Shown here piece after piece: positions 13,547 through 29,577 of a DNA stretch of 64,000 nucleotides. The DNA lies in NCBI RefSeq assembly GCF_026168105.1, contig NZ_LBMW01000002.1, forward strand, positions 124,001-188,000, in the 5' to 3' direction. The notes beneath the pieces were generated by a model, which was not told the DNA's origin, did no database searches, and worked only from the letters and a program-made list of their open reading frames with translations. The DNA comes from Streptomyces hygroscopicus. Lineage in GTDB: Bacteria > Actinomycetota > Actinomycetes > Streptomycetales > Streptomycetaceae. Numbering within the stretch: the first letter of the stretch is position 1; every line of letters starts with the position of its first letter. The translations under genes were made by a program, and so were the position numbers.

Positions 13547-13619
13547 AGACTGTCCACGCCTGTCCGCTATTCGGACAGGCGTGGCAGGTTCCGGCTCTGT
13601 GTCTGCTTTACTTGATCCC

Positions 13620-13706
13620 ATGACCACGACGAGCAGCCGCACCTTTGCGACCGAGGCGACCATGACGCCCGGTGCTCGTTGTATGTGTCGAATGTGCGCC
13701 TGCTAG
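13620..13706 (+). CDS. Cys/Met-rich leader peptide ahead of metNIQ
   Basis: A 28-codon frame that ends RCMCRMCAC before TAG, giving four Cys and two Met in the last eight residues. TTTACT (13607-13612) ends 7 bp before the ATG, so the transcript probably starts at the A of the ATG and is leaderless. A second in-frame ATG at 13662, with GAGG 5 bp upstream, would give a 14-residue version with the same tail. The tail uses codons rare in Streptomyces (TGT twice, CGA). Leaderless Cys-rich short frames that act as cysteine-responsive attenuators are known in mycobacteria, and a similar role for this one is inferred from position. Confidence 0.6.
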   Translation: MTTTSSRTFATEATMTPGARCMCRMCAC

Positions 13707-13831
13707 AGGGCCCCTGCACCACCCCAGAGCCTCGCGCCCCGAAGCGAGACCGCCCCGGCATGTCCGTACACCTGCCTCGTACGTGACCGCGCCGCCCCCA
13801 CCGCCTGAACGGCATGGGGACCCACCGCGCA

Positions 13832-13888
13832 CACGTTCTCCCCGGTTCGATCGCCATTGCGAGAACCGTGCCGCGTTCCCACGCAATG
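13832..13888 (+). promoter_or_regulatory. Competing RNA stems in the metN leader
   Basis: CACGTTCTC (13832-13840) can pair with GAGAACCGTG (13861-13870, one bulged C), or CGGTTC (13843-13848) with GAACCG (13863-13868). Both exclude pairing of CATTGCG (13855-13861) with CGCAATG (13882-13888). Interleaved alternatives of this kind are typical of attenuators. A separate small hairpin CTCGC/GCGAG lies at 13731-13748. The 235-nt leader between the peptide and metN has no other gene. Pairing was found by eye and not folded computationally. Confidence 0.45.
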
Positions 13889-13941
13889 CACCCGTGCCCG
13901 GCGCACATCCACGCCCTGCACTCGACAGTGACGGAATCCCA

Positions 13942-14976
13942 GTGATCACCACATCGGGCCTGACCAAGGTCTACCGCTCGCGCGGCCGCGAGGTGACCGC
14001 CCTCGACGGCGTCGACCTGCACGTACGCGAGGGGGAGGTGTTCGGCGTCATCGGCCAGTCCGGCGCCGGCAAGTCCTCGCTCATCCGCTGCGTCAACCTC
14101 CTGGAGCGCCCCACCTCCGGCACGGTCACCGTGGCCGGCCGGGACCTCACCGCGCTCACCGGCCGCGGACCACGCGCCGGAAAGGAGCTCCGGCAGGCGC
14201 GCAGCCGGATCGGCATGGTCTTCCAGCACTTCAACCTGCTGTCCTCGCGCACCGTCCAGGACAATGTCGAGCTACCGCTGGAGATCCTCGGCAGGTCTGG
14301 GAAGGAACGTTCCTGCCGGGCCCTGGAACTGCTCGACCTCGTCGGCCTCGCCGACAAGGCGGGGGCCTACCCGGCCCAGCTCTCCGGTGGCCAGAAGCAG
14401 CGCGTCGGCATTGCCCGCGCCCTCGCCGGCGACCCCAAGGTGCTGCTCTCCGACGAGGCGACCAGCGCCCTCGACCCGGAGACCACCCGCTCCATCCTCC
14501 AGCTGCTGCGCGACCTCAACCGGCAGCTGGGCCTCACCGTCCTGCTCATCACGCATGAGATGGACGTCGTCAAGAGCGTCTGCGACTCCGCCGCCCTCAT
14601 GGAGAAGGGCCGCATCGTCGAGTCCGGCACGGTCAGCGAACTGCTGGCGACCCCCGGGTCCGAACTCGCCGCCGCGCTCTTCCCGGTCAGCGGCGACGCC
14701 TCCGGTGACGACCGCACCGTCGTCGACGTCACCTTCCACGGCGAGGCGGCCACCCAGACCGTCGTCTCGCAGCTCTCGCGCACCTACAACATCGACATCT
14801 CGATCCTCGGCGCCGCGATGGACACCGTAGGCGGCAGGCAGGTCGGCCGGATGCGCATCGAACTGCCCGGCCCCTACGAGGAGAACGTCGTGCCGATCGG
14901 CTTCCTGCGCGAGCAGGGCCTGCAGATCGACGTCCTGGGCCCCGAGCCCGCGCTGGTTCAGGGAGGTGCCAAGTGA
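13942..14976 (+). CDS. metN: Methionine ABC transporter ATP-binding protein
   Basis: The ATPase of a D/L-methionine importer, located at the cytoplasmic face. The 344 residues contain Walker A (GQSGAGKSS), the ABC signature LSGGQKQRVGIARAL, Walker B (VLLSDEAT) and the H-loop (LLITHEMD). Residues about 265-340 form the NIL domain (VVDVTFHGEAATQTVVSQLS), the methionine-sensing regulatory domain of MetN. GTG 13942 begins the standard MITTSGLTKVY start; no strong ribosome binding site is seen before it. Its stop overlaps the metI start. Confidence 0.93.
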   Translation: MITTSGLTKVYRSRGREVTALDGVDLHVREGEVFGVIGQSGAGKSSLIRCVNLLERPTSGTVTVAGRDLTALTGRGPRAGKELRQARSRIGMVFQHFNLLSSRTVQDNVELPLEILGRSGKERSCRALELLDLVGLADKAGAYPAQLSGGQKQRVGIARALAGDPKVLLSDEATSALDPETTRSILQLLRDLNRQLGLTVLLITHEMDVVKSVCDSAALMEKGRIVESGTVSELLATPGSELAAALFPVSGDASGDDRTVVDVTFHGEAATQTVVSQLSRTYNIDISILGAAMDTVGGRQVGRMRIELPGPYEENVVPIGFLREQGLQIDVLGPEPALVQGGAK

Positions 14977-15788
14977 CCTGGACGGATTGGCCGGCGATGC
15001 AGCCGCTGCTGTCCGAGGCCTGTTGGGACACCCTCTACATGGTCGGCTGGTCCACCCTGATCGCGGTCGTCGGCGGGCTCCCGCTCGGCGTTCTCCTCGT
15101 GCTGACCGACCGCGGCGGACTCCTCCAGAGCGTCGTCGCCAACAAGGTCATCGGGCAGGTCGTGAACGTCGCCCGCTCGATGCCCTTCATCATCCTGATG
15201 GTCGCGCTGATGAGCTTCACGCGCACCGTCACGGGGACGACGATCGGCCGCGAGGCCGCGATCGTGCCCCTGGCCATCGGCGCGATCCCGTTCTTCGCTC
15301 GGCTCGTCGAGACGGCCGTTCGTGAAGTCGACGGCGGGCTCGTCGAGGCCGTCCAGGCGATGGGCGGCAACACCTGGACGGTCGTGCGCAAGGTCCTCGT
15401 ACCGGAGGCCCTGCCCTCCCTGATCTCCTCCGCCACCACCACGGTCGTCGCCCTCATCGGCTACTCCGCGATGGCCGGCACGGTCGGCGCCGGCGGGCTC
15501 GGTGACATCGCCATCCGCTACGGCTACCAGCGCTTCGAGACCCAGTTGATGTGGATCACCGTCGGCATCCTCGCCGTCGTCATCTCGCTGATCCAGTTCG
15601 CCGGTGACTACGCGGCCCGCGCACTGCACCGCCGCGGCGGGGGCTCGGGTGCGGCGCCCCGGCTCCGGTTGCTGAGGGACCGGACGCTCGCGGCCGAGAC
15701 CGCTACGGCCGGGACCGTCGCGGCCGAGACCGCTACGGCCGGGACCGTCGCGGACGAGACCGCCGCCGACGTGAGCAAGGTCGCCTGA
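14973..15788 (+). CDS. metI: Methionine ABC transporter permease
   Basis: The inner-membrane channel subunit (271 residues), with about five transmembrane helices. The EAA loop that docks on MetN is EAVQAMGGNTWTVVRKVLVPEAL, read here in part, near residues 125-145. The start overlaps metN by 4 nt (GTGA), a sign of translational coupling. Oddity: the last 40 residues form an extra cytoplasmic tail containing a tandem AAETATAGTV repeat. This tail is absent from the compact MetI fold of about 220 residues. Confidence 0.92.
   Translation: MTWTDWPAMQPLLSEACWDTLYMVGWSTLIAVVGGLPLGVLLVLTDRGGLLQSVVANKVIGQVVNVARSMPFIILMVALMSFTRTVTGTTIGREAAIVPLAIGAIPFFARLVETAVREVDGGLVEAVQAMGGNTWTVVRKVLVPEALPSLISSATTTVVALIGYSAMAGTVGAGGLGDIAIRYGYQRFETQLMWITVGILAVVISLIQFAGDYAARALHRRGGGSGAAPRLRLLRDRTLAAETATAGTVAAETATAGTVADETAADVSKVA
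15691..15750. repeat. Perfect 30-bp tandem repeat in the 3' end of metI
   Basis: Positions 15691-15720 and 15721-15750 are identical, and 15751-15763 begins a third, diverged copy. Each unit encodes ten residues of the Ala/Thr-rich C-terminal tail. Because the unit is a multiple of three, copy-number change by slippage would keep the frame. Confidence 0.9.
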
Positions 15789-15919: not shown

Positions 15920-16753
15920 GTGCGTAACACCGCCAAGATCACCACCGTCGTTCTCGCCGCCGGAGCCCTCACCTTCGGGCTCACCGCCTGCGGCTCCGGC
16001 AAGAGCTCCTCCGCCGCCTCCGACACCAGCGGCCCGCTGATCGTCGCCGCGAGCCCCACCCCGCACGCCGAGATCCTCGACTACATCAGGGACAACCTCG
16101 CGAAGAAGGCGGGCCTGGACCTCCAGGTCAAGGAGTTCACCGACTACGTCACGCCGAACACGGCGACCGAGGACGGGTCCGTCGGTGCCAACTACTTCCA
16201 GAACCAGCCCTACCTCGACGACTTCAACAAGAAGAACGGCACCCACATCGTGCCCGTCGTCACGGTGCACCTGGAGCCGCTCGGTCTCTACTCCCACAAG
16301 GTCAAGAAGGCCGACGAGCTGAAGAGCGGCGCGACCATCGCCGTCCCGAACGACACGGTCAACGAGGCGCGGGCGCTCAAGCTGCTCGCCGCCAACGGGC
16401 TCATCACGCTCAAGAGCGGCGTGGGCAGCGAGGCGACCCCCCAGGACATCGCCAAGAACCCGAAGAACCTGAAGTTCAAGGAGCTTGAGGCGGCACAGAC
16501 CCCGCGCTCCCTGGACGACGTGGACGCCGCGGTGATCAACGGCAACTACGCCATCTCCTCGGGCCTCAGCCCCGCCAGGCAGGCCATCGTCCTGGAGTCC
16601 GCGAAGAACAACCCGTACGGCAACTTCCTCGCGGTGAAGAAGGGCAACGAGAAGGACCCGCGCGTTCAGAAGCTCGCGAAGCTCCTCACCTCTCCCGAGG
16701 TGAAGAAGTTCATCGAGGACAAGTACCAGGGCTCGGTCATCGCGTCCTTCTGA
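15920..16753 (+). CDS. metQ: Methionine-binding lipoprotein of the ABC importer (NLPA family)
   Basis: The extracytoplasmic solute-binding protein (277 residues) that delivers methionine to MetNI. Residues 1-25 are a lipoprotein signal ending in the lipobox LTAC, so the mature protein is anchored by its lipidated cysteine. The NLPA fold is evident from LIVAASPTPHAEIL, the conserved ANYFQNQPYLDDFN and the C-terminal KFIEDKYQGSVIASF. GTG 15920 follows AGGAAAGG. It lies 131 bp after metI, with no terminator between, and a strong terminator follows. Confidence 0.93.
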   Translation: MRNTAKITTVVLAAGALTFGLTACGSGKSSSAASDTSGPLIVAASPTPHAEILDYIRDNLAKKAGLDLQVKEFTDYVTPNTATEDGSVGANYFQNQPYLDDFNKKNGTHIVPVVTVHLEPLGLYSHKVKKADELKSGATIAVPNDTVNEARALKLLAANGLITLKSGVGSEATPQDIAKNPKNLKFKELEAAQTPRSLDDVDAAVINGNYAISSGLSPARQAIVLESAKNNPYGNFLAVKKGNEKDPRVQKLAKLLTSPEVKKFIEDKYQGSVIASF

Positions 16754-17665: not shown

Positions 17666-18874
17666 ATGGCCGACCGGGTCACGGTGATCGGCTGGGACGG
17701 CTCGCCGCTGACCGCCGCGGCGCGCTCGGCCCTCGGGGCCGCCACGCTCGTCGCAGGCGCGGCCCACCATCTCGCGCTCCCCGATGTGCCGAGGACGGCC
17801 GAACGCATCCGTCTCGGCAGCGTCGAGCTCGCCGCCCGCCGTATCGCCGCCCACCGCGGCACCGCCGTCGTGCTCGCCGACGGCGACCCGGGCTTCTTCG
17901 GCGTCGTACGCACCCTGCGCGTCCCCGAGTTCGGTCTGGAGGTCGAGGTCGTGCCGGCCGTGTCCTCGGTGGCCGCCGCCTTTGCTCGGGCCGGGATGCC
18001 CTGGGATGACGCACAGGTGGTCGTCGCACACCGCCGCACCCTGCGACGCGCCGTGAATGTATGCCGCGCCCACACCAAGGTCGCGGTGCTCACCTCACCG
18101 GGTGCCGGGCCCGCCGAACTCGGGCTGCTCCTGGACGGGATCCACCGCACCTTCGTCATCTGCGAGGAACTGGGCACCGAACGCGAACAGGTCACCGTCG
18201 TCACCTCCGACAAGGCCGCCGACCACACCTGGCGCGATCCCAACGTCGTCATCGTCATCGGCGGCCCCGTCACCGCGGCCGGCGGCGGCTGGATCGCCGG
18301 TCGCGACCCGGGCGCGGGGCCGCGCGGCTGGGCGCTGCCCGCGGAGGCGTACGGCGGCCTGCTCGGCGAAGGTGAAACGGATCTGCTGCGCGCCGCCCAA
18401 CTCGCCCGCCTGGGCCCGAGGGTGGGCGACCTGGTGTGGGACATCGGCGCGGGCAGCGGTGCCTTCGCCGTGGAGGCCGCCCGCTGCGGGGCCGCCGTCA
18501 TCGCCGTCGACCGGGACAGGGACGCCTGCGGCCGCACGGCGGCCGCCGCCCGCCACTTCGGAGTGCAGCTCCAGGTGGTGCACGGCGCCGCTCCGCACAT
18601 CCTGGAGAACCTGCCCGAACCGGACGTCGTTCGGGTCGGCGGCGGGGGAGCCGCGGTCGTCTCGGCCGTCGCCGACCGCCGCCCGCAGTGCATCGTCGCG
18701 CACGCCGCGACCCGGGACGCGGCCGAACTCGTCGGCCGGGACCTGTCCGAACACGGCTACGACGTCGAGTGCGCCCTGCTGCAGTCCGTGGAACTCGACA
18801 CGCGGGCCTGGACGGAGAAGGAACGGAGTGTCGCGTTCCTGCTCAGCGGCCGATTGACCGACCGCTGCCCGTGA
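17666..18874 (+). CDS. cobL: Precorrin-6Y C5,15-methyltransferase (decarboxylating)
   Basis: A bifunctional enzyme of cobalamin synthesis that methylates C5 and C15 of the corrin ring and removes the acetate side-chain carboxyl at C12. The 402 residues join an N-terminal tetrapyrrole methylase domain (about 1-200; VTVIGWDGSPLTAAA, LADGDPGFFGV) to a C-terminal Rossmann SAM-methyltransferase (about 230-400; VWDIGAGSGAFAVEAAR). The same two-domain layout is known as CobL or CbiET. ATG 17666 is clear. It is followed by the BluB-CobT fusion, consistent with a B12 gene group; no cobalamin riboswitch is visible in the upstream 127 bp. Confidence 0.92.
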   Translation: MADRVTVIGWDGSPLTAAARSALGAATLVAGAAHHLALPDVPRTAERIRLGSVELAARRIAAHRGTAVVLADGDPGFFGVVRTLRVPEFGLEVEVVPAVSSVAAAFARAGMPWDDAQVVVAHRRTLRRAVNVCRAHTKVAVLTSPGAGPAELGLLLDGIHRTFVICEELGTEREQVTVVTSDKAADHTWRDPNVVIVIGGPVTAAGGGWIAGRDPGAGPRGWALPAEAYGGLLGEGETDLLRAAQLARLGPRVGDLVWDIGAGSGAFAVEAARCGAAVIAVDRDRDACGRTAAAARHFGVQLQVVHGAAPHILENLPEPDVVRVGGGGAAVVSAVADRRPQCIVAHAATRDAAELVGRDLSEHGYDVECALLQSVELDTRAWTEKERSVAFLLSGRLTDRCP

Positions 18875-29073: not shown

Positions 29074-29079
29074 GGTGCG

Positions 29080-29151
29080 TGGACGATACTGGGATTGAAC
29101 CAGTGACCTCTTCCGTGTCAGGGAAGCGCTCTCCCGCTGAGCTAATCGTCC
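29080..29151 (-). tRNA. tRNA-Val (GAC)
   Basis: A 72-nt cloverleaf on the minus strand with acceptor GGACGAT/ATCGTCC, anticodon loop CTGACAC (anticodon GAC) and T-arm GGTTCAATC. CCA is not encoded. It is the promoter-distal member of the five-tRNA operon. Confidence 0.93.
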
Positions 29152-29194
29152 TCGGGATCATGGCCATGCCCTGCGGACGGCCATGAGTACTGCG

Positions 29195-29266
29195 TGCGCG
29201 ATACTGGGATTGAACCAGTGACCTCTTCCGTGTCAGGGAAGCGCTCTCCCGCTGAGCTAATCGCGC
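29195..29266 (-). tRNA. tRNA-Val (GAC), variant acceptor stem
   Basis: The D, anticodon and T arms match the flanking tRNA-Val(GAC) genes, but the acceptor is GCGCGAT/ATCGCGC instead of GGACGAT/ATCGTCC. Both strands of the stem changed together, so pairing is kept and the gene should be functional. Confidence 0.93.
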
Positions 29267-29320
29267 GGGGATCCTCGGGGATCATACAGACCCTTGCGGG
29301 CCGACGTCCTTGCGGACCAG

Positions 29321-29392
29321 TGGACGATACTGGGATTGAACCAGTGACCTCTTCCGTGTCAGGGAAGCGCTCTCCCGCTGAGCTAATCGTCC
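29321..29392 (-). tRNA. tRNA-Val (GAC)
   Basis: Identical over its 72 nt to the copy at 29080-29151. It is separated from tRNA-Cys by 1 bp when the CCA of tRNA-Cys is counted. Confidence 0.93.
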
Positions 29393-29393
29393 T

Positions 29394-29467
29394 TGGAGGT
29401 GGAGACGGGATTTGAACCCGTGTAGACGGCTTTGCAGGCCGTTGCCTCGCCTCTCGGCCACTCCACC
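29394..29467 (-). tRNA. tRNA-Cys (GCA)
   Basis: Acceptor GGTGGAG/CTCCACC, anticodon GCA in loop CTGCAAA, T-arm GGGTTCAAATCCC. The 3' CCA is encoded (29394-29396), unlike in the neighbouring tRNA-Val genes. Confidence 0.93.
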
Positions 29468-29504
29468 AGGAGTGCAGGGGGTCACGAAGATCCCCTGGTT
29501 TTCG

Positions 29505-29577
29505 AGCGGACGACGAGGCTCGAACTCGCGACCTCAACCTTGGCAAGGTTGCGCTCTACCAACTGAGCTACGTCCGC
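29505..29577 (-). tRNA. tRNA-Gly (GCC)
   Basis: Acceptor GCGGACG/CGTCCGC, anticodon GCC in loop TTGCCAA, T-arm GAGTTCGAGCC. It is the first gene after the tRNA promoter. Confidence 0.93.

Follow-up and report, generated by a model that had tools for sequence, protein, structure and literature searches.

The metNIQ genes of Streptomyces hygroscopicus raise the question of whether the short Cys- and Met-rich frame that precedes them is a genuine leader and, if so, what its translation might report to the importer genes downstream. We addressed this question in a 64,000-nt stretch of the genome (the window), in which a TTTACT hexamer and an ATG at 13620 are followed by metN, metI and metQ:

13554..13584, no strand assigned: palindrome 5´ of the promoter, core TGTCCGCTATTCGGACA at 13561-13577; likely protein operator
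13607..13612, + strand: predicted -10, TTTACT
13620..13706, + strand: predicted leaderless uORF, homologue of S. lividans metL; 28 codons plus TAG at 13704-13706, peptide MTTTSSRTFATEATMTPGARCMCRMCAC
13680..13703, + strand: Cys/Met tail of the uORF, TGT ATG TGT CGA ATG TGC GCC TGC
13933..13935, + strand: weak ribosome-binding GGA of metN, assigned by eye
13942..14976, + strand: metN, GTG start
14973..15788, + strand: metI
15920..16753, + strand: metQ

The best NCBIfam match of the metN product is TIGR02314 (ABC_MetN) at 378.2 bits, below the cut-off of 499.7, and its Pfam NIL domain scores above cut-off. The metI product passes NF008049 (MetI; 217.0 bits, cut-off 212), and the metQ product matches PF03180 (NlpA lipoprotein) above cut-off at 324 bits, with the NCBIfam MetQ models ranking best yet below their cut-offs. 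The palindrome, TGTCC-N7-GGACA in the window, lies at about -59 to -43 relative to the uORF ATG. Among the 139 Streptomyces upstream regions described below, TGTCC-N5..9-GGACA was present within 130 nt 5´ of the uORF in 82 and a relaxed form in 131, compared with 0/139 in a control stretch (the first 130 nt of metN), and 79 of the 82 strict palindromes begin 57-60 nt before the uORF ATG. The palindrome, fixed in place, is likely an operator at an activator-like position, so metNIQ may additionally be controlled by a DNA-binding regulator. Further along the window, two genes after metQ, 17666-18874 gives a match above cut-off to precorrin-6Y methyltransferase CbiE plus a CbiT part, and a minus-strand tRNA cluster, Val-Val-Val-Cys-Gly, lies at 29079-29577; the tRNA-Cys (GCA) of this cluster would decode TGC as well as TGT, the two Cys codons of the tail.

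The sequence-only reading of this DNA had pointed to the ATG at 13620, 7 nt after TTTACT, and to a 28-codon frame ending in RCMCRMCAC with TGT and CGA as rare codons, all of which are present: in eight CDS of the window, only 4 of the 24 Cys codons are TGT, and of 176 Arg codons 9 are CGA. Six of the final eight uORF codons are Cys or Met, for which the binomial chance is 3.8e-9 at one given place, uncorrected for how many short frames there are, taking as background the Cys (1.05%) and Met (1.23%) content of the 2280 residues in the same eight CDS. No two Cys codons are adjacent in the window's tail, and 235 nt separate the uORF stop from the metN start (GTG, 13942). When the S. hygroscopicus genome was searched with the uORF peptide, a second good match was not seen. 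For S. lividans TK24, the homologous peptide metL (SLIV_29928; MSTTSDRTPATEATTTPGARCMCRRMCAF) is described as leaderless by RNA-seq and as a putative attenuator (PMC8079986), and the transcript start reported there at the homologous ATG agrees with the leaderless type of frame proposed for the window.

A MetN search of 150 Streptomyces genomes gave a match in 143, the window's own included. We took 140 of the other 142 loci, excluding G074 and G106 for matches that were partial or at a contig edge; L159 (356 nt) and L170 (133 nt) were too short to reach the leader, leaving 138 loci that with the window make 139 rows. All 139 upstream regions carry a TTTACT-type hexamer, 6 nt (68 regions) or 7 nt (71 regions) before an ATG that opens a frame of 28-37 codons, and the frames encode 102 distinct peptides. 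Indels in the uORF come only in threes; 82 frames stop at TGA and 57 at TAG. The spacer to metN is 146-255 nt long, with lengths distributed over all three residue classes modulo 3 (51/38/50). From residue 19 on, each tail holds 3-8 Cys and Met residues (3 in 6 frames, 4 in 53, 5 in 58 and at least 6 in 22), made up of 1-5 Cys and 0-4 Met; at least two Cys are found in 137 and at least one Met in 138, and the L156 tail has four Cys and no Met. The frame and its Cys/Met tail are thus kept as other residues change, and the outcome that the sequence-only reading had named as a refutation did not occur: no frame is broken in these close relatives, and every tail retains at least one Cys.

The content of the tail is constant across the 139 frames and the exact positions of its Cys and Met residues shift, with longer uORFs carrying codon insertions placed between the tail Cys and Met codons. 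Cys and Met stand side by side (CM or MC) in 136/139, and RM precedes C, R or H in 138/139. Arg replaces Cys26 in 30 and Cys21 in 10 of the 110 frames of 28 residues. CGAATG is present in 137/139, and this combination of the rare Arg codon CGA with a following Met codon possibly has a codon-level role. Among the 110 frames with 28 codons, variability at codon positions 1, 2 and 3 was 0.115, 0.144 and 0.086, about three rows being displaced by internal indels; the third position is the least variable, which argues that much of the uORF conservation reflects the RNA and not the peptide. A search with the peptide only gave E <=1e-5 in 35 of 37 Streptomyces genomes and nothing better than 0.06 outside the genus; the two misses are G008, whose contig is truncated, and G022, which also lacks a MetN match. 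Thirteen more divergent Streptomyces all have the leader (12 by pattern and L178, with TTCACT, by eye), as do 69 of 70 named Streptomyces loci by a looser scan in which peptides were not viewed singly, and the 70th, L263, has the leader with an altered -10; the 139-row, 13-genome and 70-locus sets may overlap in species. The uORF at 13620-13706 is real and old.

We used RNAalifold on 81 dereplicated leaders, counting pairing over the 139-row alignment, which gave the following conserved elements:

13626..13634, + strand: P1 5´ arm, ACGACGAGC, in the uORF head
13674..13682, + strand: P1 3´ arm, GCTCGTTGT, reaching the first Cys codon of the tail
13638..13649, + strand: P1a hairpin
13650..13673, + strand: P1b hairpin
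13731..13748, + strand: P3 hairpin, CTCGC..GCGAG
13894..13921, + strand: P4 hairpin, adjoining the metN ribosome site

In this fold the head of the uORF pairs with its own tail (P1, 95.7% of cells paired) and encloses P1a and P1b (99.6% of cells paired in P1b); downstream, GCGCCCCGAAGCG of P3 is found in 128/139. Double changes were observed in 8 cells of P1a and in 5 cells each of P1b and P4, numbers reached by 0 of 500 shuffles, and in 2 cells of P1 and 1 cell of P3, numbers reached by 85 and 177 of 500 shuffles and hence unsupported, the shuffles taking no account of relatedness. Covariation thus falls outside the stems that had been quoted as a switch, 13832-13840/13861-13870 competing with 13855-13861/13882-13888: both are present in the window, are paired in 607/997 (61%) and 262/757 (35%) of cells and are not conserved, and we rejected them as a conserved switch given this poor pairing across the 139 rows. 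A TTCTC..GAGAA hairpin occurs in 23 of the 139 spacers. Minimum-energy folding gives the same head-to-tail structure for uORFs of Actinacidiphila, Kitasatospora and a second family of the order, with mixed dinucleotide-shuffle z-scores for eight folded uORFs of -2.0 (window), -0.7, 0.4, -2.0, -1.0, -1.9, -1.8 and -0.2.

The tail was also predicted to pair with sequence at the metN ribosome site (P2):

13686..13691, + strand: P2 5´ strand, TGTCGA (Cys23-Arg24), RNAalifold pair probability 0.42-0.83
13922..13927, + strand: P2 3´ strand, TCGACA, at -20 to -15 of metN, RNAalifold

Both TGTCGA and TCGACA are present in 104 of the 139 leaders, the tail strand only in 11, the ribosome-site strand only in 16 and neither in 8. 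The metN ribosome-site window was predicted to pair with the tail at a mean of -24.0 kcal/mol, compared with -16.5 kcal/mol elsewhere in the leader, and was the single best tail partner in 66/139. Real tails outpaired synonymously recoded tails in 115/139 (mean z -0.97), and the expected number of tail-site pairs was 5.9 vs 2.3 with shuffled sites over the 139 leaders and 7.5 vs 3.0 in a shortened model. P2 showed double changes in 0 cells of the 139-row alignment, that is, no covariation, and ribosome sites swapped between species paired equally well (-31.9 vs -32.0 kcal/mol). A ribosome mask placed on the tail in partition-function calculations moved the mean unpaired probability of the metN site from 0.41 to 0.43 over the 139 leaders and closed the site in the window (0.40 to 0.30); a mask at codon 6 opened the site as much as the tail mask did. 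Among 81 leaders folded in the shortened model, the metN site opened in 35 and closed in 10 when the ribosome was stalled at the last Cys/Met codon, and opened in 25 and closed in 23 when it was stalled at the first. Additionally, the ribosome site was not the best tail partner in duplex tests of the second family, Kitasatospora and Actinacidiphila. As to a translation attenuator of the ermC kind, in which codons of the leader would contact the downstream gene's ribosome site either directly or via a switch, these observations point both ways, and P2 is a lead rather than a result.

Outside Streptomyces, GTCTG-TTTACT precedes frames with the tail RMCRMCHMCRMCA in Actinacidiphila (1/1) and the tails RMCGRRMCRR and RMCRRMRRMCCR in Kitasatospora (2/2). 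In the second family of the order, all seven metN loci have TATAGT, 7 nt and an ATG, with tails like MMCGCMPSCRMCSC, and CGAATG is found in all seven frames. These diverged homologues retain the Cys/Met tail, with the remainder of the peptide altered. CGAATG (window 13689-13694) is shared by all ten diverged frames (L171-L177, L242, L270 and L275), where P2 is absent. Further families were sampled through 20 metN loci (L191-L210): in one family, a Cys/Met-rich short frame without a recognisable -10 was present in 3/13 loci, and the remaining seven showed no convincing frame (L206 extends over only 253 nt). An 11-residue candidate in L207 was discounted, as were longer in-frame candidates ending GGCCLMPV in Nocardiopsis (L268). 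Scans before metN of Brenneria, Winslowiella, Dickeya and a Frigoribacterium MAG found no leader frame, a 23-residue candidate in Brenneria being without Cys at its end. Judged by sequence, the leader signal fades beyond Streptomycetaceae-like genomes. We also noted by eye, in the interval between the first frame and metN of L191, L192, L195 and L202, all from one of these other families, a second short frame ending HLPF-x-PGTR, for example RRLSHLPFHPGTR.

Two Flavobacterium metN loci were met by chance, and around one of these a search of 61 Flavobacterium genomes matched MetN at E 1e-100 in 10 (loci examined: L285, L288 and L293-L300). A Met/Cys frame such as MRKNDQNMKNYYNSSMMCCTIVMQFIELASI precedes metN in 8 of the 10 loci, the two most divergent being without one; all eight frames contain MM, as MMCC in five and as MMCR, MMYC and MMCY in one each. 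A terminator-like hairpin 5´ of metN was detected by scan in L285 (expected 0.1) and by eye in the others. The pattern ATGATGTGYTGY gave eight matches in three genomes and 0 in the backward control; three are metN leaders, three look unrelated, and two are L306 (1474-1620) and L307 (1477-1557), where the leader frames MKNSTVNKMMMCCKMPMCIQSCCCQK and MKTIAKRNMMCCKMMQMCIPHCCCQK are followed by a terminator (by scan in L306). The gene downstream of a small frame in L306 passes the O-acetylhomoserine/serine sulfhydrylase model. Separately, a further L306 frame, MNLTAKNMCCMMSEQSAE at 1320, precedes these elements with a T-tailed hairpin of its own by eye, called on the minus strand by the scan. Mixed Met/Cys frames before sulfur genes of the unrelated Flavobacterium, an independent use of such codons, are the best outside support for a dual reading of Cys and Met.

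On balance we favor, with some confidence, the reading that the uORF is a leaderless attenuator on which a ribosome short of charged Cys-tRNA or Met-tRNA would stall in the Cys/Met tail and so raise metNIQ expression. In sulfur-replete cells, the ribosome would finish the uORF and depart, and the free tail would then pair just 5´ of the metN ribosome site through P2, holding metN down. Stalling at any codon from Cys21 to Cys26 would place the ribosome over the 5´ strand of P2, so that P4 would form alone and metN would be translated, and Cys and Met shortage would act alike because all tail codons fit one ribosome footprint. The hold through P2 and its release by stalling are what we infer here, next to the frame, tail, covarying fold and metN-side elements that were observed. 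We lean slightly toward doubt on the broader proposition that the alternating Cys/Met footprint is an OR gate for Cys-tRNA/Met-tRNA hunger, a recipe that would have arisen independently in Flavobacterium with an intrinsic terminator, before metN and before a homocysteine-synthesis gene. The output step in Streptomyces could be translation initiation or Rho acting in the spacer:

13707..13941, + strand: C-rich, G-poor spacer to metN, possible Rho loading region (mean over the 139 leaders, C 0.449 and G 0.286)

This spacer is central to an account in which Rho loads once the uORF ribosome has left and ends transcription before metN, with a stall blocking the loading through the fold or through coupling. 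Spacer C-G averages 0.163 and is at least 0.088 in each of the 139 leaders, compared with 0.025 in the uORF, 0.023 upstream and 0.046 in early metN, and the spacer mean is attained by 1.3% of the 200-nt tiles cut from both strands of the window and by none of its 17 upstream regions called mechanically, that of metQ coming nearest at 0.14. A simple intrinsic terminator before metN was rejected, since a scan of 13560-13990, which spans the uORF-metN interval, found 0. Given a C-rich, G-poor spacer and no terminator, Rho stays a live alternative, and a role for Rho in mycobacterial cys leaders is proposed by Seliverstov et al. (PMC1262725). Base composition by itself is weak evidence, however, and the conserved block beside the metN ribosome site is left unexplained; we consider a Rho-based account unlikely. 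Somewhat unlikely as well is a tail that senses Met only, as implied by Droste et al., or Cys only, with the other kind of codon incidental. The near-invariance of Met25 (RM[CRH] in 138/139), beside Cys26 and Cys21 that vary, and a methionine importer as the downstream product fit a single sensor for Met, but at least one Cys in 139/139 tails and at least two in 137 do not, nor do the four Cys and zero Met of the L156 tail or the renewed mixing of both codon kinds in the second family and in Flavobacterium.

The conservation within the frame could also be read without attenuation by codon supply. If the peptide itself stalled the ribosome, possibly sensing a sulfur metabolite, the conservation of ATEA..TPGAR and of the RM residues in most Streptomyces would be expected; these residues coincide with paired bases, however, co-changing pairs change residues, and Kitasatospora and the second family have a wholly different N-terminal part. 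Base pairing thus largely accounts for what is conserved in the body of the peptide, which counts against nascent-peptide arrest and makes it very unlikely in our estimate. A structured metabolite-binding RNA in which the frame is incidental would in turn account for stems within the frame that covary and for third codon positions being the least variable. Yet the frame is open in 139/139 with indels in threes, the loops of the type expected in an aptamer are the variable part (codons 6, 8, 9, 14 and 15), and no Rfam model matched at E <=5 save a chance 13-bit match on the opposite strand, on which basis a riboswitch or leader known to Rfam was rejected; we regard a riboswitch as most improbable.

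The sequence-only reading had held that a combined Cys and Met sensor on a methionine importer would be new. The leader itself is not, having been published as metL (PMC8079986); in the portion of that paper at hand, Droste et al. (2021) call metL, in one strain, methionine-dependent and rich in Met and Thr, and Cys is not part of the description. The S. lividans leader is the same locus, with a homologous peptide 5´ of metNIQ and no clear terminator (PMC8079986), and in comparison with metL as described in those passages, the Cys content, breadth, fold and metN-site pairing come from the present analysis. In the open-licence literature we found no Cys/Met leader of Streptomyces beyond PMC8079986 and no Met/Cys leader in Bacteroidota; for F. 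psychrophilum, the text available to us mentions leader-peptide attenuation before amino-acid operons in general terms (PMC9723704). Seliverstov et al. (2005) report that no regulatory RNA structure is conserved ahead of actinobacterial methionine operons (PMC1262725).

The nearest relatives in design are the polycysteine uORFs of mycobacteria (Canestrari et al., 2020, as relayed in passages of PMC9031893, PMC13236596 and PMC9094748), which likewise are leaderless short frames with terminal Cys codons and sulfur genes downstream and reportedly have no terminator, attenuation being proposed at translation. Similarly, the candidate cys leaders of Mycobacterium, Propionibacterium acnes and Bifidobacterium longum have Cys runs near the stop and no terminator in the account given in PMC1262725. 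Unlike the mycobacterial polycysteine run, the Streptomyces tail alternates Cys with Met and Arg, and the gene downstream is a methionine importer. Like classical attenuators (trp, ilv and leu), the Streptomyces leader has a peptide rich in regulatory codons; unlike them, it has no intrinsic terminator from the uORF to metN. Leader peptides are usually taken to report one amino acid. Dual sensing, if true, would suit a metabolism where methionine and cysteine each feed the other, the leader would offer a simple means of asking how a ribosome stalled on leaderless mRNA can act on a gene ~240 nt further downstream when no intrinsic terminator is involved, and the mixed Met/Cys recipe in a distant phylum would suggest a general solution. 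Set beside these systems, the metNIQ leader is a known, little-studied one; new are its breadth, the Cys half of its code, the covariation in its fold, the C-rich composition of the spacer, the palindrome resembling an operator and the parallel in Flavobacterium.
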